Shown here in pieces: positions 7,072-18,497 of a stretch of DNA of 64,000 nucleotides. A program made the translations under genes and the position numbers. The stretch spans positions 2,057,501 to 2,121,500 of the forward strand of contig NZ_CP041767.1 of the NCBI RefSeq assembly GCF_022026395.1, in the 5' to 3' direction. Each line of letters opens with the position of its first letter. The stretch's first letter is position 1. The notes beneath the pieces were generated by a model. That model made no database searches. It was not told the origin of the DNA and saw nothing but the letters and a program-made list of their open reading frames with translations. Source of the stretch: Brevibacillus brevis. Lineage in GTDB: Bacteria; Bacillota; Bacilli; Brevibacillales; Brevibacillaceae.

Positions 7072-7500
7072 TTATTTGACCAAGATTTCAACCTTGGTTC
7101 CGTCTGGAAAATCCTCTAGTTGATTGGAAATCCACGATCCAGCACCGCGATTATCTGAGGGAGATATGTATTCGATATGTGCCCCTGTTCCACCCTCAGC
7201 ACACATTGCCATCGGCCATTCGTCTCGATCGAACCCCTTTTTTGTAGGAATGCCTTTGAGCGATTCTTCGCGATTTTCATGTGCTCCACCGCGGTCAATT
7301 GTGCATACAGCTGACTTCCCAGAGGCAACCGCTTCTTTAATATGCTTTGCAGTCTGAGGGTATCGATCAGACGGAAAAACAATCGTATGGTTTACATTCC
7401 CGTTGCTGACTGTTTTGTTTTCTATTGGCACAAGTCCAAAGAAATAGGCGGCACCGATCAGTAACGCCACAATCAACACCAGCATTTTTTTCTGTGTCAT
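7072..7500 (-). CDS. nucB: NucA/NucB-type secreted DNase
   Basis: A 142-residue non-specific DNase of the NucB family, which degrades extracellular DNA or acts during sporulation and biofilm dispersal. An N-terminal hydrophobic segment (about residues 5-22) gives export or anchoring. The catalytic block is intact: [17 protein letters not shown], then [16 protein letters not shown] with the Asp/Glu pair, then [11 protein letters not shown]. The length fits B. subtilis NucB. The ATG at 7500 follows GGAGG by 10 bases; an upstream in-frame ATG at 7551 has no ribosome site. The gene stands alone. The family is certain, the nucA versus nucB assignment less so. Confidence 0.88.
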
Positions 7501-7684
7501 GCTTTTGTCCTCCAATGTAAGTTCTTTTTCAATAATAACACCGCCAAACATTATATCGAAGCGTTGTGAATGCTTAAAACCCTCTGTTAACCTTTATCAG
7601 AGGTGGGAAGTGTTATGGTTACTTGAGTTATCGTGTGTACTTTTCATTAAGGAAAAAGCTTATTCAAAAAACAGATAAAGACGT

Positions 7685-8306: not shown

Positions 8307-8532
8307 AAAACATCTCTGCCAACACGAAAACCTGAAAAGCAGCTACACCAAACAGAGCAAAGGCCATCTTACGGTTTTTCTTCAGTTCAAATGATCCTAA
8401 AGAAGCCATGACAACGGCAAGGCATATCATCGTTACTATTCTTAAAAAAGCCACATGTGTAAAAATATTCACTACTGCAATAGAGAAGGCAACGACTGAA
8501 AAGATATGGAACCAAAGAGGTCTATTTTTCAT
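8287..8532 (-). CDS. Small three-helix membrane protein
   Basis: An 81-residue protein with three hydrophobic segments at about residues 8-25, 27-45 and 56-76, separated by a basic loop (FELKKNRKM). The overall pattern is like the small DUF3953-type membrane proteins of Bacillus, though I cannot confirm the family. The ribosome site is weak (GGTGAT). It lies on the same strand as, and downstream of, the Cys/Trp-rich peptide gene at 8787, separated by a terminator. Role unknown. Confidence 0.55.
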   Translation of the reverse strand: MKNRPLWFHIFSVVAFSIAVVNIFTHVAFLRIVTMICLAVVMASLGSFELKKNRKMAFALFGVAAFQVFVLAEMFYVTATK

Positions 8533-8704
8533 AAAGGATCACCAACAATTCCCTTTTTACAACAATTTTAACAGATAGACTGATTAAGTCCACTTAACAC
8601 AGGGGTAATTATAAATTTTGTCATGGTGAATGCCATTAGACCGATCCATTTAGCAGGTGGATCTGGAAACATAGAAAAATGAAAATGTCAAAGAGAATGG
8701 TGAT

Positions 8705-8733
8705 AAGAAACACTCCCTAATAAGCAGGGAGTG
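8705..8733 (-). terminator. Intrinsic terminator (leftward)
   Basis: CACTCCCT pairs with AGGGAGTG across a 7-base loop, followed on the minus strand by TTTCTT. It ends the Cys/Trp-rich peptide gene. Confidence 0.7.
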
Positions 8734-8786
8734 GTAATAATACAACCAATGCTGGTTAGCATGGTGTTTATTGGAGCAGGCTCACA

Positions 8787-8939
8787 TTACATCTCGCGTT
8801 CTGGACACCACCAACCGCACCCATGACGCATGCAAATCCAGATACACCCTCCAGCTTGAGCTGGATAATAAGATGAATATTGCACCAATTGACCATTTAC
8901 TTTCTTGAATTTCTTAGAATTAGCTTTCTTTTTTTTCAT
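8787..8939 (-). CDS. 50-residue Cys/Trp-rich peptide with Gly-Gly motif
   Basis: This short minus-strand gene has an excellent ribosome site (AGGAGGA, 8 bases before ATG) and its own terminator at 8705. The product starts with a very basic segment of 13 residues (MKKKK, then KKFKK), then a polar, Tyr-rich stretch (YSSYYPAQ). An Ala-Gly-Gly at residues 29-31 leads straight into a C-terminal part of 19 residues. That part has four Cys (32, 36, 41, 45; spacing C-x3-C-x4-C-x3-C) and three Trp. A Gly-Gly step before a Cys-rich core is the layout of many bacteriocin or modified-peptide precursors, but small Cys-rich coat proteins are an alternative. No modification or transport gene lies nearby. 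The gene call is strong; the role is open. Confidence 0.75.
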   Translation of the reverse strand: MKKKKANSKKFKKVNGQLVQYSSYYPAQAGGCIWICMRHGCGWWCPEREM

Positions 8940-9331
8940 GGGATATGTCCTCCTTTAGGATGGGTCTAAAATAAGGTATTAACATAAATTTCCTTTTGAT
9001 TGTACGAGTGTTCTCAAGTGACAAAAATGGACGGAATAAACCGTTTTAAGTAATTTGGATCTTTGTAGTAACGGGCATTATGTATTCAATACAATAAGGC
9101 ACCATCCTGTCTGATAGGAGGTGCCTCTTCGTGTTTTTTGGTATATTCCATCACTTCAAACCAGGCTAATTGAATCGTATACTTTCCCGCTCCTGTTTTT
9201 AGGAGACGGGTTCAAAAGTATCCTATATATCGAAAAGCGAGCGTTAAAGACGTGCTCGTAAAATACACTTTTCATTAATTGACAAGCTTACGGTTGAATT
9301 TTATTAGATAGAAGATGTTTCTCTTGTTTCA
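8940..9331. other. Gene-free stretch with two hairpins
   Basis: This holds the leader and presumed promoter of the Cys/Trp-rich peptide (ribosome site at 8948-8953, minus). A hairpin lies at 9098-9125 (GGCACC-A-TCCT with AGGAGGTGCC), followed on the plus strand by a T-run a few bases later. An imperfect hairpin lies at about 9186-9210 (CCCG..TCCT with AGGA..CGGG). No coding frame is convincing. Confidence 0.4.
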
Positions 9332-10123
9332 CTACTTTGCGTGTGTAAGGGATACTTCAAAGGCATCTAAAATCTCTAAAAAATGCGAGGCTTCTCTAAA
9401 TACATGGTCAGCGAGCAATGGGGGGATTATGCTCTTTATTTTGCATTCCTCAATGAGATCACGAGCTGTTTTTTTGAAGTCACGCAATTGGCGGACAGAT
9501 ACACGATTTTGATCGACAAATTGATTCAGTAACGGTTTCGTTTGAGACTGGGGACGCATGGAATCAAGATCCTGAGCTTGGAACAATAATTGATCAAAAT
9601 CATGGCTGAATTCTCTAGCTTGATCCACTAGCTTTCTTTCGGAAGGATCGAGCAAATGGTTAATAAATTTCGCATGGTCAGCCATGATTCGTAGGAAAAA
9701 GACATTTTCATTAATCACCGCATCTGGTAAGGGATCAAGGTTTCCCGTATTCAATTGTTCTAATCGATTCCGAAAATAGGCAGCTTCCCTGCTCACATGA
9801 TCGACCAACAGCGGAAAGTTGTTACCACCGATTTTGCAATGAATAATAAGTCCGAGTACTTTGCGTTTGAAAACCCAAATATAGGAAACGGCATTGTGAA
9901 CAAGCTGATTAAAGTCATAGATTCGTTGAGGGTCGATGTCAGAAGAAAAGGCAAGTGATTGGTTTTCAATTTCTTCAAAAATACTGTAAAAGCGATTCGC
10001 TTCTTCAATCAATTTTGTGTCTTCGCAGTTAAAGCCCAATTTGAGAAACAGGGAGTGTTCTTTCATGATACGAGACCAAAAACGTATTTCCTCTAATGAT
10101 CGATCAACAAAAACATTTGTCAT
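9332..10123 (-). CDS. DUF2935 protein (paralogue 1)
   Basis: A 263-residue, all-helical protein with two DUF2935 repeats. Each carries the pattern FWSRIMKEHSLFL / FFLRIMADHAKFI near its start and LVDHVSREAAYF / LLADHVFREASHF near its end. The conserved His and Glu residues on these helices would suit metal binding in a four-helix, ferritin-like bundle; that is an inference. I start at ATG 10123, 5 bases after GGAGGT; the longer frame to 10180 lacks a ribosome site. It shares its neighbourhood and strand with a second DUF2935 protein and a His-rich small protein. Function of the family is not established. Confidence 0.85.
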   Translation of the reverse strand: MTNVFVDRSLEEIRFWSRIMKEHSLFLKLGFNCEDTKLIEEANRFYSIFEEIENQSLAFSSDIDPQRIYDFNQLVHNAVSYIWVFKRKVLGLIIHCKIGGNNFPLLVDHVSREAAYFRNRLEQLNTGNLDPLPDAVINENVFFLRIMADHAKFINHLLDPSERKLVDQAREFSHDFDQLLFQAQDLDSMRPQSQTKPLLNQFVDQNRVSVRQLRDFKKTARDLIEECKIKSIIPPLLADHVFREASHFLEILDAFEVSLTHAK

Positions 10124-10271
10124 GTAGTACCTCCGCATAGGATTTGAGCAGTTCATAGCCCATTTTCCACTTTTGATCACACATAATGTATGTCTATGCG
10201 TTTACCCAGTTTCGTGAGTGGGCAGTAGCACAGAATTAAAAAAATTCTGGTGTTTTCTGGCTTGTCCCACG

Positions 10272-10636: not shown

Positions 10637-11443
10637 TTACTCGATTCGCGGTCTGGTGGGGAAACAGTCTGGTGACGGCACGTCGGAAACCTCAGATAGC
10701 TTCATCAAATAGTAGCATTCTTCTCGAGACATATGGTCGGCCATGAGCGGGGATAAAACTCCAAGCAATTCATCACGCATCCGCATCTCTTCCAATTCAT
10801 GCAAAAATACCTGAAAAAGCTTCATTTCCATTTCTGCTTGATGGTTAAAACGGCGTAATGCCGGGAAGTTATTCAAGTTTGTTCGGAGATACCCGGCTAA
10901 TTCCACCGCTTTTAGGTAAAAATGCTCGAACTGTTTGGTAAATTGTTCACTTTTAAGCTGATAGTCTTTTTCCACCATGTCCAAAAGGGAAGTGATGGTG
11001 GCTGCATGCCCGACCGCATCGGATAGCCACAAAAGATGGAGCTCTACCGGGTGATTGGCAGGTGGCAAGCTTCCGGAGAGAAAAGCATGCAAAATTCGTT
11101 CATACTCTTCTAGTTCATTGACCATGTGGTTCATAAACGTTGGGGGAAGACTGATCGATATTTTACTGATGAGATGCCTTTCCAGAATGTGGAGTTTAAA
11201 ATCGCGCAGTTGCTGCGTGAGTTCACTTGCCTGCTGGTTGAGTGCGTGCAGTTCATCGGAAGACAGATTCTGCCTGGCGTTATCCAGCAAGTTATCGAAT
11301 GACACGATGAAGTATACGGCTCTTTCAATTTCCTGCTCTTCATTCGGAGCGAGTGATTGAAAAATAAAGCGGGCATGATCGCCCAGAATTTGTAGCCAAA
11401 AACGATGCTCAAACAACATACTTTCTCTTAAAGGTTCATTCAC
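10637..11443 (-). CDS. DUF2935 protein (paralogue 2)
   Basis: A 268-residue paralogue of the protein at 9332, with the same two-repeat plan: FEHRFWLQILGDHARFIF and later LHLLWLSDAVGHAATI, closing with LMADHMSREECYYL. In this copy the first repeat's final DHxxRE motif has become NHMVNELEEY, so one half may have lost the putative metal site. The GTG start at 11443 lies 7 bases after AAGGAGGG; the longer frame to 11587 is unsupported. It is divergent from the DUF1648 gene at 11575. Confidence 0.85.
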   Translation of the reverse strand: MNEPLRESMLFEHRFWLQILGDHARFIFQSLAPNEEQEIERAVYFIVSFDNLLDNARQNLSSDELHALNQQASELTQQLRDFKLHILERHLISKISISLPPTFMNHMVNELEEYERILHAFLSGSLPPANHPVELHLLWLSDAVGHAATITSLLDMVEKDYQLKSEQFTKQFEHFYLKAVELAGYLRTNLNNFPALRRFNHQAEMEMKLFQVFLHELEEMRMRDELLGVLSPLMADHMSREECYYLMKLSEVSDVPSPDCFPTRPRIE

Positions 11444-11574
11444 TGTTGTTCCCTCCTTACTCCCCATCAAGATATGTAAAAGCGCCCAGAAGTGTGTGAC
11501 GGATTGACCTTGACTCCCAAATGGACATAAATGGTAAAATACTTGTAGGAGGAGCAGCGGTAAGGGGGGAGAAA

Positions 11575-12069
11575 ATGAAGAGACCAATCAAAAATATACC
11601 AAAGACAGGCAGCGAATGGCTATGGGATGTAGTTGGTTGTTTATTTTTCGTAGGATCGCTATTCTTTTTAGTCTTTGTATGGAATAAGCTTCCTGACGAG
11701 GTGCCTGCCCATTACAATGCTTTGGGGGAAGTAGATCGCTGGGGCTCAAAATGGGAACTGCTTCTTTTACCCGGGATTGGCGTCTTTATTGTTTTCCTCA
11801 TGAAGGTACTCGAAAAACATCCAGAGCTCCATAACTATCCGGCACGCTTCTCTGAATCGAATGCCGAGCAGTTTTATTTGCACAGTCGAAAAATCGTGAA
11901 CCAAATAAAAAATAGTTGCTTAATCATTTTTTCCGTAATCCTGTTGGAGTCAGTTTCTATTGCTCAAGGATGGGGAGGCGGCTTTGGGAAGTGGTTTCTG
12001 CCGATCACCATCATTGGGATGATCGTTCTGCTTGTAATAGGAATCGTGAAACAAAAAAAGATTCAATGA
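11575..12069 (+). CDS. DUF1648 membrane protein
   Basis: A 164-residue integral membrane protein with helices at about residues 15-38, 55-77, 105-125 and 135-157. The DUF1648 signature LPDEVPAHYNALGEVDRWGS lies after the first helix. DUF1648 occurs in SdpI-like immunity proteins and related membrane proteins of unknown role; this one lacks the full SdpI length. The start at ATG 11575 is preceded by AAGGGGGGAG. It stands alone, divergent from the DUF2935 gene. Confidence 0.8.
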   Translation: MKRPIKNIPKTGSEWLWDVVGCLFFVGSLFFLVFVWNKLPDEVPAHYNALGEVDRWGSKWELLLLPGIGVFIVFLMKVLEKHPELHNYPARFSESNAEQFYLHSRKIVNQIKNSCLIIFSVILLESVSIAQGWGGGFGKWFLPITIIGMIVLLVIGIVKQKKIQ

Positions 12070-12206: not shown

Positions 12207-12632
12207 ATGAAAGGAATTATTTTTGCTATTTTGGGCGGTGTTTTCATTACCTTGCAAGGTGTAGCGAACGCAAGAATCAGTCAAGATATTGGTACTTGGC
12301 AGACCGCGACACTTACGCAGTTAACGGGCTTCCTCACGGCTTTAGTACTCCTGTTGTTTTTTCGAGATGGAAAATGGCAGGCATACAGGCGAGTGAAACC
12401 GTTATATTTGACAGGTGGGGCATTCGCTGCGTTTATCATTTTTAGCAATGTTACGGCTATCCAGCATATCGGGGTAACCATGACGATTTCAGCTCTCTTG
12501 ATTGCGCAGTTAAGCCTGACTTTTCTCATTGATAGCAATGGGTGGTTTGGTGTCGATCAACAAAAGATGAGGTTGCCGCATTTTATCGGGATCGGGATGA
12601 TGATTCTGGGTGTGCTGATTCTGAGGGCCTGA
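12207..12632 (+). CDS. YdcZ/DUF606 family small transporter (subunit 1)
   Basis: A 141-residue membrane protein with five predicted helices, beginning with the typical MKGIIFAILGGVFITLQGVAN and containing SNVTAIQHIGVTMTIS. DUF606 (YdcZ) proteins belong to the drug/metabolite transporter superfamily as half-sized proteins and usually occur in pairs that may form heterodimers. The start follows GTGAGAGG. It is followed 23 bases later by a Crp/Fnr regulator and then a second DUF606 gene, so the three form an operon. Substrate unknown. Confidence 0.85.
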   Translation: MKGIIFAILGGVFITLQGVANARISQDIGTWQTATLTQLTGFLTALVLLLFFRDGKWQAYRRVKPLYLTGGAFAAFIIFSNVTAIQHIGVTMTISALLIAQLSLTFLIDSNGWFGVDQQKMRLPHFIGIGMMILGVLILRA

Positions 12633-12655
12633 TAGCGAGAGGATGAAACAGAGGG

Positions 12656-13354
12656 ATGAAGGAAATCGAAAATCGTGAGCTTTTGCAACAATATCTCCAT
12701 GACCATCAGTTAGCGACTGTCTTTCATGAGCCTTTTCTGCCGCATTTGTCCTTGTACCAATTTGATCAAGGAGAGCTCATTTGTGCCCAGGGTGAAGCGA
12801 CCTGTCACCTGTATGTTTTGGTGAAGGGCAAAGTAAAGATTTTTACGACTTCCCCTGAAGGAAAAACACTGATCCTTTCTTTTAAAAAGCCGCTTGAAGT
12901 GATCGGAGATATTGAGTATGTCAGAGGGATTTCTTATCTTAATTCGGTTGAAGCGGCCTCGTCTGTTCAGATGATCGGGATTCATTATCGCTGGTTGAAA
13001 AAATACGGGACAGACTACGCTCCACTCCTGCAATTTTTACTGCAAATCATTACGAATAAATTTTGTGTGAAGTCCAATACATTAAGCATCAACCTTCTGT
13101 ACCCAGTAGAAGTACGTTTCGCTCGTTATTTGTTGTCCGTTTCGATAGAGGAGTGGAATCCTGCCAACAAAGAGCAGATCCGTACAAGCAATCTCTTGGA
13201 TGCAGCGAATATGATTGGAACGAGCTACAGACATTTGAATCGGGTCATTCAACAGTTCTGCAAGGAGGGACTGATTGAGCGTGCCAATGGATTCCTTCTG
13301 ATCAAGGATAGGGAAGGTTTAGCTAAAATGGCGAGCGAGACTCCGAACGAATAA
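12656..13354 (+). CDS. Crp/Fnr family transcription regulator (YeiL-like)
   Basis: A 232-residue regulator with an N-terminal cyclic-nucleotide-binding-like beta barrel (FDQGELICAQGEATCHLYVLV, residues 35-60) and a C-terminal winged helix (LLDAANMIGTSYRHLNRVIQ, about residues 178-200). It lacks a cluster of N-terminal Cys that would hold an Fe-S centre, so it is not Fnr in the oxygen-sensing sense. Two Cys (C45, C51) lie in the barrel and could be redox-active; that is speculation. The layout between two DUF606 transporters suggests it controls them in response to a substrate. Confidence 0.85.
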   Translation: MKEIENRELLQQYLHDHQLATVFHEPFLPHLSLYQFDQGELICAQGEATCHLYVLVKGKVKIFTTSPEGKTLILSFKKPLEVIGDIEYVRGISYLNSVEAASSVQMIGIHYRWLKKYGTDYAPLLQFLLQIITNKFCVKSNTLSINLLYPVEVRFARYLLSVSIEEWNPANKEQIRTSNLLDAANMIGTSYRHLNRVIQQFCKEGLIERANGFLLIKDREGLAKMASETPNE

Positions 13355-13375
13355 GGAGACAGGAGTGTCAAAATC

Positions 13376-13843
13376 ATGGTAGTCGGGCTATTCTTCGCGT
13401 TACTGGCTGGCTTGTTGGTCAGCCTGCAAAATATTTTCAACAGGAAAGTAAGTGAACAGGCAGGAACGTGGTCTACGACAACTCTCGTGCTTGGGATGGG
13501 ATTTCTGTCGTCTTTGACGATGGGTCTTATTTTTGAAGGCAATCAGTTGTTTTCGTTTCGAGCTATGCAGACGTGGTACTGGTTCAGTGGCATGATCGGC
13601 GTTGGGGTGGTCTTTTGCCTGGTACAAGGAATGAGACTGCTTGGCCCAACGTATGCTATTTCCATTGTTCTCACTGCCCAGCTCGGTTTTGCTTTGTGGT
13701 CGGATTCAATCGGCTGGCTAGGGTTGGTTCAAGTGCCGATGACATTTACGCAATTGTTTGGAGTTTTGGTCATTGTCGGGGGTGTCATTGTATTTAAACT
13801 AGGTGGCGAATGGCAACAGAAACGCTCCATAAGTAAGATGTAA
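13376..13843 (+). CDS. YdcZ/DUF606 family small transporter (subunit 2)
   Basis: A 155-residue DUF606 protein with about five helices, opening with LFFALLAGLLVSLQNIFNRKVSEQ and containing LGPTYAISIVLTAQLGFALWSD. It is homologous to the product at 12207 but divergent in sequence, as in heterodimeric pairs. The ribosome site is AGGAG, with ATG at 13376. It is the last gene of the operon. The substrate is unknown. Confidence 0.85.
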   Translation: MVVGLFFALLAGLLVSLQNIFNRKVSEQAGTWSTTTLVLGMGFLSSLTMGLIFEGNQLFSFRAMQTWYWFSGMIGVGVVFCLVQGMRLLGPTYAISIVLTAQLGFALWSDSIGWLGLVQVPMTFTQLFGVLVIVGGVIVFKLGGEWQQKRSISKM

Positions 13844-15632: not shown

Positions 15633-16700
15633 TTATTCAATCAATACGCCCCGCGCCCTACCTATGATGCGGGTGGCGCGACTCCATAGCAACTGGAGCT
15701 TTTTTCTCTGCAGGGGGCGCACATACAGATCAGGGCTTTTCAGGTAGGAACGCATGGGGATGACGCGAAAGCATACACGTCCTTGACTTACATACCGTTG
15801 CGAAAACGTCGGAATGACCGAAATTTGCTCGAGTGAAACCTGATTCCTCTCATCTTTTTCGACGGTAAATCGCAGGATTGCTCCGCACTGGGATTGATCA
15901 AACGAGAGCATTTTCTCTGATGTAAAATTGCCCAAAGAATACGCGACTAGTGTTTGTCTCTTTGTCCCGTGAGGAGTCATGATACTCGGGGTGACAACAG
16001 GCTGCAGAACATGTGGGTGAGCCCCGAGGATGACATCAGCACCGTTGTCGAGCAGGCTTTGTACGAGCTGCCGCTGGCGCGTCGTCGGTGTATAGCGGAA
16101 TTCAATCCCAAAATGAAGGGAGATGATCACAACATCGACGTGAGGACGAACTTTTCTCAGGTCGGATAATATTGTGTCAAGATGAAGCAGTCGGACGATC
16201 CATGGTGTATGAGCGGGGATCACCTGCTTGTTTGTCCCGTAGGTGTAAGCAAGCAGGGCGATGCGAATGCCGTTTACCTCCTTGATCAGGTAGGTATTTG
16301 CCTCCTCAAGGCTTCGATAGGTTCCGGTATGGGCAAGCTTGTATCGATCCAAAACATCAAGGGTTCGGCATAGTCCGGTTACTCCGCCATCCAGACAGTG
16401 ATTATTCACTGTAGTCAATACGTCAAATCCAGATGCTTTCAAGTCCCGAGCCAATTCATCTGGACAGTTGAAGCGAGGGTAACCGGTTCGTGCCGAACCG
16501 ATTTGATAGGGCTGTGTTTTCCCGGAAAAAGTGGTTTCTAAATTGCCTATTGTGAGATCTGCCGCTGAGAGAATCGGTGTCACGGGGTGAAACATATCTG
16601 TAAAAGTGAATTGATCTGTACCAGGCAGTCTGGCAGTTGCCACCTGCTCTTTCCACATCAGGATGTCGCCTACAGCGGCGATGGTGGCCTTCTTTTTCAT
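15633..16700 (-). CDS. CapA-family metallophosphatase-like protein
   Basis: A 355-residue CapA (poly-gamma-glutamate synthesis PgsA-like) protein, a calcineurin-fold family. The motifs are in order: AVGDILM near residue 7, IGNLETTF near residue 50, TVNNHCLDGG near 95, ISLHFGIEF near 190 and GAHPHVLQP near 220. No signal peptide or membrane anchor is seen at the chosen start, unlike classical PgsA/CapA, so the protein may be cytoplasmic or use another route. The ATG at 16700 follows GGAGGGGAGGTG; the frame extends to 16952 without support. It is divergent from a MurF-like ligase at 16861, which suggests a shared role. Confidence 0.85.
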   Translation of the reverse strand: MKKKATIAAVGDILMWKEQVATARLPGTDQFTFTDMFHPVTPILSAADLTIGNLETTFSGKTQPYQIGSARTGYPRFNCPDELARDLKASGFDVLTTVNNHCLDGGVTGLCRTLDVLDRYKLAHTGTYRSLEEANTYLIKEVNGIRIALLAYTYGTNKQVIPAHTPWIVRLLHLDTILSDLRKVRPHVDVVIISLHFGIEFRYTPTTRQRQLVQSLLDNGADVILGAHPHVLQPVVTPSIMTPHGTKRQTLVAYSLGNFTSEKMLSFDQSQCGAILRFTVEKDERNQVSLEQISVIPTFSQRYVSQGRVCFRVIPMRSYLKSPDLYVRPLQRKKLQLLWSRATRIIGRARGVLIE

Positions 16701-16860
16701 GCGCTTCACCTCCCCTCCTACTCTATTCCAGAAGTCGTCCGTCTGATTTGGATAGTAGCGGAACGTTTTCATAGATAATGGTCTATACAGGCTGTCTATG
16801 TCGTTCATACAATAGGAAAGCTGATCGAGAGAAGAAGAACGAGGCAAAGGGGTGATACCC

Positions 16861-18021
16861 GTGAAAAAGAAGAGAAGAGCTGTAGCACCTGTAAAGACGC
16901 TGATTCTCGACAAGCCAGTTATTGCTGTGACGGGAAGCGCAGGGAAGACCACGACAAAAGAAATGATCTACACCATCCTGAATCTGCGCATGCCCACATA
17001 TAAATCGATGTACAACAAGAACTTCCTGGGAAATACAAGAGCGCATACCAAAAGAATTCGGGACGAGCACAAGGCCGTTGTGCTTGAGTATGGAATTTAT
17101 CGAAGCGGTCATTTGCGACAGCACTGCAAAATCATCCAGCCGTCGATGGGAGTCATCACGAATATTGGCACGGCTCATATCGGAAATTTTGGCGGAGATG
17201 CCAGACGGCTGGCATTAGCAAAAACGGAGTTAATTCGCCATATGAAACCCACGGGAACCATTTTTCTGAATTGGGATTGTCCTTATTCTCGCGAGTTTAT
17301 TCAACAGCCTTACCTAGGGTCGTTCACGGGAAAAATCGTGACATTTGGCAAGGAGCAGGAGGCGGACTATAAGGCGGGGCGAACGAAAATAGAAGGCAAT
17401 GGGTTTCGATTCGAATGTTCTTTGCGTGGAGAAAAGGAGTCATTTTTTGTTCCTATTCCTGGCGAGCATAATTTATACAACGCATTGGCTGCTATCGCAG
17501 TTGCACATACGATGGGGATTCCCGTCGATGACATTCGTCGCGGGTTGAGTCAGTTTCGCGGACAGCGAAAACGCCTTACCAGCTATCGGCTCGCGAATAA
17601 CATTCAGGTGCTGGATGATACCTTTAGCTCGAATCCGGATGCGGCCAAGGCAGCGATTGATGTGTTAAGTCAAGTCGGGCATACCACAAAGATCGCCGTT
17701 CTCGCCAGTATGCTGGAAATGGGCAAATACGATGTGAAAGGTCACGAGGATGTCGGGAAATATTTGAGTCAAAAAAATGTAGACTACTTGTATACGCTGG
17801 GAAGTAGTGCCAGGTATATTGCAAGAGCAGCGATTCGCTCCGGATTTCCGGCAAATCGGGTGAGGCATTGCTTAAGTAAGGCAGGCCTGCATCGGCGTCT
17901 AGCAAAACAGCTGCAGCCAAATACAGCCTTTCTCGTAAAAGGATCAAATCGGTTGAAAATGGGAGAGACTGTACAATTTTTGTGCAGGGTAACTGCGAAG
18001 CAAAGCACTGGAAAAAGATAA
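16861..18021 (+). CDS. MurF-like Mur ligase lacking the N-terminal domain
   Basis: A 386-residue ATP-dependent amide ligase of the Mur family. The P-loop AVTGSAGKTTTKEM sits at about residues 22-35; the MurF-like INIGxAHIG and VLDDTFSSNPDA blocks follow at about residues 102 and 257. The usual MurF N-terminal substrate-binding domain (about 80 residues) is missing, so the UDP-MurNAc tripeptide is an unlikely substrate. Start at GTG 16861 after AAAGGGGTG; a GTG at 16852 is possible. Divergent pairing with a CapA protein suggests the two make or modify an envelope or spore polymer. That is inference. Confidence 0.8.
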   Translation: MKKKRRAVAPVKTLILDKPVIAVTGSAGKTTTKEMIYTILNLRMPTYKSMYNKNFLGNTRAHTKRIRDEHKAVVLEYGIYRSGHLRQHCKIIQPSMGVITNIGTAHIGNFGGDARRLALAKTELIRHMKPTGTIFLNWDCPYSREFIQQPYLGSFTGKIVTFGKEQEADYKAGRTKIEGNGFRFECSLRGEKESFFVPIPGEHNLYNALAAIAVAHTMGIPVDDIRRGLSQFRGQRKRLTSYRLANNIQVLDDTFSSNPDAAKAAIDVLSQVGHTTKIAVLASMLEMGKYDVKGHEDVGKYLSQKNVDYLYTLGSSARYIARAAIRSGFPANRVRHCLSKAGLHRRLAKQLQPNTAFLVKGSNRLKMGETVQFLCRVTAKQSTGKR

Positions 18022-18155: not shown

Positions 18156-18497
18156 ATGTCATATCAATTTCCCCCTGGCGGCCGAGATGGTTCCCCAGGT
18201 TTTCCAGGCTCCCCCGGATCACCGGGAGGATTTCCCCCTCCACCACCAGGTCCTCCACCGAGCAGGACGCCAAGTGCACCGGGAGCAAGAGGCTATGGCG
18301 GAACACGCCGGATTGATGCTGGCGGATTCTATCCCTGTTTATATCGTTACACGTACGTGTGGTTGCGAAATGGTCGTTCTTTTTGGTTTTACCCCGTCTA
18401 TGTCAGTCGTCACTCTGTAACCGGCTATCGCTGGAGAGGGTATCGATGGGAGTATTACGGGACAGACTTGGATCGAATCGCTTATTTTACATGTTAA
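18156..18497 (+). CDS. Pro/Gly-rich collagen-like protein with Tyr/Arg-rich C-terminal domain
   Basis: A 113-residue protein. Residues 5-47 are Pro/Gly rich with collagen-like GSPG and PPPPPGPPP runs. Residues 55-113 form a compact Tyr/Trp/Arg-rich domain (CLYRYTYVWLRNGRSFWFYP, then WRGYRWEYYG) ending in Cys. There is no signal peptide. The ATG follows AGGAGGTGA by 6 bases. Such proteins are common in spore coats or exosporium of Paenibacillaceae, but I cannot name the family. It lies just after the MurF-like ligase and before a bidirectional terminator. Confidence 0.75.
   Translation: MSYQFPPGGRDGSPGFPGSPGSPGGFPPPPPGPPPSRTPSAPGARGYGGTRRIDAGGFYPCLYRYTYVWLRNGRSFWFYPVYVSRHSVTGYRWRGYRWEYYGTDLDRIAYFTC

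Follow-up and report, generated by a model that had tools for sequence, protein, structure and literature searches.

A candidate spore-shell mini-protein of Brevibacillus brevis and its unnamed cysteine-rich cassette family

The gene and its family

On the minus strand of the window (the whole 64,000-nucleotide stretch of Brevibacillus brevis DNA analysed here) lies a 50-codon gene whose product, read from the ATG at 8939, is MKKKKANSKKFKKVNGQLVQYSSYYPAQAGGCIWICMRHGCGWWCPEREM (Table 1). The gene is real. Relatives of the peptide at 92, 88, 74 and 68% identity are found in four other Brevibacillus genomes by six-frame genome searches, and 50 of the 53 within-group pairs of the family have a dN lower than dS (read from two-decimal values), so it is more than a chance reading frame. 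An initial annotation of this DNA had pointed to the AGGAGGA ribosome-binding site with its 8-base spacing, the ATG, the 50 codons and the stop, and all are present. It had also credited the gene with a terminator of its own; one is indeed found, against a mean of 0.3 in shuffled sequences, but it starts 53 nt beyond the stop. The product, too, is built as had been described, with a lysine-rich head, a tyrosine-rich middle, Gly-Gly at residues 30-31, cysteines at 32, 36, 41 and 45 (C-x3-C-x4-C-x3-C) and tryptophans at 34, 43 and 44.

Table 1. Features of the peptide gene and its upstream region (window coordinates).
Feature	Position	Strand	Description or support
50-codon gene of the head and Cys-tail family	8787..8939	minus	open reading frame, relatives, dN below dS
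Ribosome-binding site AGGAGGA	8948..8954	minus	8-base spacer to ATG
Intrinsic terminator	8711..8733	minus	9-pair stem and T-rich tail
75-bp upstream block kept between paralogue groups	8940..9014	minus	mean identity 66% vs 52% shuffled
-10-like element AATACCTTA (MATANNNTA)	8972..8980	minus	
-35-like element AATCA	8997..9001	minus	C at fourth position
Conserved Lys-rich head, residues 1-21 (KKFKKV-NG-QLVQ)	8877..8939	minus	predicted beta-hairpin; alignments and low-confidence model
Tyr/Gln/Pro linker, residues 22-31	8847..8876	minus	ends in non-conserved Gly-Gly
CX3C-X4-CX3C tail core, residues 32-46	8802..8846	minus	predicted hairpin

A profile of the head (about the first 23 residues) recovers 28 genes from 12 of the 39 genomes of the order, all in one taxonomic family: 11 of 26 Brevibacillus genomes and 1 of 13 from sister genera. 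Excluded were a weak head match in genome G021 (E 0.07), because it lacks a Cys-rich tail, and the matches L003, L005, L016, L022, L026 and L029, as unrelated frames. The same 12 genomes are the only carriers among 398 drawn from the class, and no other taxonomic family is represented. The genome of the window holds three members: the window gene, an 82-residue type at 3,495,191 and an 80-residue type at 806,211. In another genome (G023:C1:2930576-2968787), four members with different tails sit inside about 38 kb.

The family has no name. The window peptide has no match in Pfam or PHROGs and none over the cut-off in NCBIfam, and a single-sequence search of 5.8 billion proteins returned its own cluster alone, at 98% identity. 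Members occur in records of B. porteri, B. formosus and B. fortis. A profile search found eight proteins, of which the six named ones (three from B. laterosporus and one each from B. porteri, B. fortis and Brevibacillus sp. BC25) are all called “hypothetical protein.” Full-text literature searches with head and tail strings and locus names found no paper, and the spore-related literature held nothing on the window protein among the matches listed. A mobile or phage gene was rejected because PHROGs has no match and searches against plasmids and phages gave nothing up to E 1, and an anti-phage gene because the sole PADLOC match is at chance level (E 0.026).

Constant head, changing tails

On visual sorting, the 28 genes, which encode proteins of 46-101 aa, fall into groups A-F, with genes X and Y standing alone. 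Their heads are nearly constant (in the window peptide, eight of the first 13 residues are lysine), and their tails vary in length and in cysteine number, from four to eight. Shared cysteines allow A, C, D, E, X and Y, the short types, to be aligned, and type B (82-89 residues) and type F (80 residues) carry other tails. With cysteine allowed at X, as it occurs in some members with an extra Cys within the motif, 24 of 28 members have a paired CX3C, the others being the three of type F and gene Y; with cysteine disallowed, the count is 14 of 28. The exact CX3C-X4-CX3C of the window peptide is found in 13 of 28. The conservation of Cys spacing, which the initial annotation had proposed as a check, thus holds in part. 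The linker is longer in two B. laterosporus relatives (P0004, P0005) and has QYPxQY-type repeats.

At the DNA level, identity between group representatives runs from 58 to 92% over the first 60 coding bases and from 57 to 84% over the 75 bp upstream, where it averages 66 against 52 for shuffled sequence. Farther out, from -130 to -76, identity between the same representatives is near the shuffle level (54 against 52). Of the 28 group pairs, 23 have tail DNA no more than 5 points from its shuffle, with A-C, A-D, A-X, A-Y and C-D above this. Since the upstream block and the head are kept and the tail DNA is near shuffle, the promoter, leader and head form one cassette, behind which the tail was either replaced or diverged extensively. 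Selection on the family is, on the evidence of the substitution rates, generally purifying, though several pairs show slower change in the head than in the rest of the protein (for the window gene and its G023 relative, dN is 0.07 in the head and 0.33 in the rest).

Promoter-like elements upstream

All 28 genes align on an RTCA block (TTCA or TTCC in three), a gap of 15 or 16 nt and then a MATANNNTA nonamer, 37-41 nt before the start. In the window gene, AATCA is followed after 15 nt by the ten bases TAATACCTTA (tAATACCTTA). The core T and C of the -35 block are kept in 28 of 28 genes, and the nonamer scores 6/6 in 17 genes, 5/6 in nine and 4/6 in two. Types E and F keep both blocks despite quite different spacers. 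When the nonamer is anchored on RTCA at this spacing, 26 of 28 genes score 5 or 6 of 6 against one of 177 control ORFs (at score 5, none at 6), a contrast to be read in the light of the test having been framed after the alignment was seen and of the 28 promoters sharing descent and so not being independent. The controls were ORFs of 150 or more codons with mechanical starts, taken from the window and ten loci. Among shuffled sequences, 1.3% score at least 5 of 6, with a maximum of three in a set of 28. An unanchored count does not separate the family from chance (26 of 28, compared with 18.4 for shuffled sequences, whose maximum is 24).

The two-block pattern occurs 14 times in the window's own genome, compared to three times for a reversed control. 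One of the 13 matches outside the window precedes a small gene of the YjcZ family (PF09680; G000:C1:2374966-2375099, L112 and L124), which thus shares the pattern. The other 12, judged by eye, have no clear sporulation gene behind them and precede other kinds of ORF, or none with a clear ribosome site. This genome has five further YjcZ genes, of which two score 9/10 and three score 7, the shuffle mean being about 7. A looser form of the pattern was set aside as near its control genome-wide (104+91 against 79+87), and its extra 1-mismatch match has no family ORF behind it.

The sigma-K -10 consensus letters are CATANNNTA, and sigma-K promoters mostly have A as the third -35 base. The window gene has T at this third base and begins its -10 with A instead of C. 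In PMC517825, the -10 element is described as common to sigma-E and sigma-K promoters, and sigma-K as having a 5-nt -35 element, a gap of 14-16 nt and, in contrast to the T of sigma-E, a C as the fourth base of the -35. This C, a 15-nt gap and a -10 of the generally known consensus layout are all present in the window gene. The upstream block looks sigma-K/E-like, and its -35 cytosine and spacing fit those reported for sigma-K in PMC517825; sigma-E may be an alternative driver.

Gene neighbourhood

None of the 21 ORFs of 90 or more aa in window positions 1-20000 matches a peptidase, a peptide exporter or a RiPP or other modification enzyme in Pfam. Around five other family loci, 20 hand-picked neighbours were scanned as well. 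Two ABC-type exporters lie about 3 kb from the member in G030, and an ABC-2 transporter system is near the 80-residue member of the window's genome, at neither locus with a peptidase domain over the cut-off; a BtrH_N/DUF4872 protein, with a C39-like match below the cut-off, is about 2 kb from one of the G023 members. These transporters vary from locus to locus.

Several other genes of the region can be described. Two DUF2935 proteins, each with two matched stretches (9332-10180 and 10637-11587, minus strand), adjoin the peptide gene, and similar ORFs are also found beside its relative in G007. A NucA/NucB-type nuclease is encoded at 7072-7551 (minus), and an ORF with a very similar start is present near the G023 family cluster (L103:15071-15514). 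Two YdcZ-type exporters with a Crp-type regulator between them occupy 12207-13843 (plus). At 15633-18021, a PGA_cap capsule-type protein (minus) overlaps a Mur-ligase-type ORF (plus), perhaps a polyglutamate locus, and at 18156-18497 (plus) there is a collagen-like, Gly/Pro-rich ORF of 113 residues with no Pfam match, perhaps a spore-surface protein.

Predicted folds and known look-alikes

AlphaFold models of the window peptide without Met1 (mean pLDDT 62.5) and of the 82-residue paralogue (70.0) are both weak, and both place a hairpin at KKFKKV-NG-QLVQ, with strands at 10-13 and 16-19 in the window peptide. The window tail is modelled as two strands, and the tail of the 82-residue type mainly as helices. 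Searches of solved structures gave no usable fold match for either model, and a sequence search of the PDB gave weak matches alone (E 0.15 and above).

The window tail has the identical CX3C-X4-CX3C spacing of tachyplesin I, whose sequence and two disulfides are given in the portion of PMC6747087 cited here, and it is likewise predicted to be a two-strand hairpin. The likeness is in spacing only; tachyplesin carries a charge of +7, and the window tail is about neutral. The family also shares its paired CX3C grammar with the plant alpha-hairpinins, whose 4C motif, as defined in the cited part of PMC11591084, is CX3C-X4-20-CX3C with X not Cys; the window tail falls within it at n = 4. Helices are predicted in the 82-aa paralogue type (mean pLDDT 70) and strands in the window tail, and one member (P0007) matches the vicilin N-terminal region (Vicilin_N, PF04702) at E 8e-4, below the cut-off. 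However, alpha-hairpinins are plant proteins, and the bacterial family has its tails fused to a Lys-rich head, some with extra cysteines within CX3C. Both likenesses are a resemblance of scaffold, not membership.

In their proposed role, the closest counterparts are CotY, CotZ and ExsY (PF10612), small Cys-rich spore-shell proteins that are cross-linked by disulfides (for CotY, see the relevant section of PMC4950064). These are about 160 aa long, compared to 46-101 aa for the present family with its head and changing tails, and the PF10612 profile matches neither the window peptide nor five other family proteins. The profile also has no match in 25 of 26 Brevibacillus genomes and, in the remaining one, a weak match with two in-frame stops. 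Because no intact match exists in the 26 genomes, the role of a disulfide lattice may be vacant in this genus. The portion of PMC5335551 on the Brevibacillus spore surface that was drawn on names ExsC, CHRD, CpbA and CpbB; of these, CpbA and CpbB, about 28 and 16 kDa by fusion size less GST, are larger than any family member.

Weighing the explanations

The window gene is best seen as one member of a small, Cys-rich family of putative spore proteins with an unusual cassette design. It is probably transcribed by sigma-K in the mother cell late in sporulation, and its product is predicted to be part of the coat or exosporium, with the head docking and the tail locked by disulfides. The sigma-K-like promoter, the conservation of the cassette and the lack of a peptidase or RiPP enzyme nearby all argue for this, as do the QYPxQY-type linker repeats, which are of a kind found in structural proteins. 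Also in its favour are the genome-wide excess of the two-block pattern over its reversed control, with one copy before a YjcZ-family gene, and the missing PF10612 lattice protein; the transporters near some paralogues and the weakness of both structure models count against it. The sequences establish the gene, its head, the promoter-like elements, the variety of tails and the cysteine grammar, and from there timing, location and bonding are inferences. The initial annotation had offered a spore-coat mini-protein as its main alternative, and the putatively sigma-K/E-like promoter shared across the family lends that alternative support. As the family is missing from 15 of 26 Brevibacillus genomes, it is not an essential coat part.

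In the proposed sequence of events, the peptide would be made in the mother cell through sigma-K RNA polymerase and be docked by its Lys-rich hairpin head on the spore shell as this grows. The Tyr/Gln linker would give it reach, and the stapled CX3C-X4-CX3C hairpin would cross-link it, its cysteines forming disulfides rather than binding metal or staying as free thiols. Disulfide and isopeptide cross-links are both known coat chemistry according to the part of PMC4950064 used here. A further cross-link from head lysine to linker glutamine by the spore transglutaminase Tgl is possible: the peptide holds both residues as potential substrates, a Tgl gene is present in 26 of 26 Brevibacillus genomes, and PMC6490927 deals with cross-linking by Tgl in B. 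subtilis.

The first reading given to this gene was that of a bacteriocin-like or modified peptide, with a leader ending in Gly-Gly before a Cys-rich core. The window copy does resemble such precursors in being short and in having Gly-Gly before its cysteines, but Gly-Gly precedes the tail in three of 28 members, which all belong to the group of five that includes the window gene. Elsewhere the position holds GS, AD, IG, TG, RR or something else, and type F terminates in Gly-Gly. The Gly-Gly leader is rejected on this lack of conservation, an outcome that the initial annotation had itself named as refuting, and the absence of a maturation gene near the window gene is a further difference. The thioether rings that had been suggested are rejected as well, as the 19-residue tail (residues 32-50) holds no Ser or Thr for lanthionine.

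A broader version, in which the peptide is a secreted or spore-borne antimicrobial or signal with the head as leader and the disulfide hairpin as active core, is rather unlikely. Toxin and defence-peptide families do evolve by joining a constant 5' cassette to diversified Cys cores, which favours it, and so do the ABC exporters near two paralogues, the BtrH_N/DUF4872 protein near a third and the tail's tachyplesin I spacing and place within the 4C motif (PMC6747087 and PMC11591084, in the parts cited). Against it are the scarcity of Gly-Gly, the 21 window ORFs without a peptidase or peptide exporter, the changing identity of the paralogue-side transporters, a tail that is about neutral, a sporulation-type promoter and the excess of dS over dN, which gives no general sign of diversifying selection. 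Less probable still is a Lys-rich sporulation protein that acts in the mother cell or spore by binding a polyanion such as DNA or RNA, its Cys tail serving as a metal site or redox sensor. The lysines of the head, the sporulation-type promoter and four cysteines that could hold zinc would all suit such a binder; however, CX3C-X4-CX3C is, to our knowledge, not a usual zinc-finger spacing, the tail type differs between paralogues, and Pfam and NCBIfam hold no match over the cut-off. A vegetative or stress protein, for which the upstream block would be a sigma-A or other promoter, is very improbable, given that a scan of window 8500-9200 showed nothing of the sigma-70 type ahead of the gene on its own, minus strand and that the two-block sporulation-type element is kept between groups.

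Possible significance for Brevibacillus spores

A bolder extension of the spore-shell reading, which we regard as doubtful, likens the family to the conotoxins: one sporulation promoter and one docking head would have been refitted repeatedly with disulfide-stapled tails, among them tachyplesin-spaced hairpins and tandem CX3C modules, yielding species-specific sets of spore-surface peptides in a genus that lacks an intact lattice protein of the CotY/CotZ kind. If the spore-shell reading is right, the head would be a spore-targeting tag of about 20 residues that comes with its own promoter and tolerates very different Cys-rich payloads. It would help to explain the disulfide shell of spores in a genus without an intact PF10612 protein, and it would provide spore display with a short tag of natural origin.
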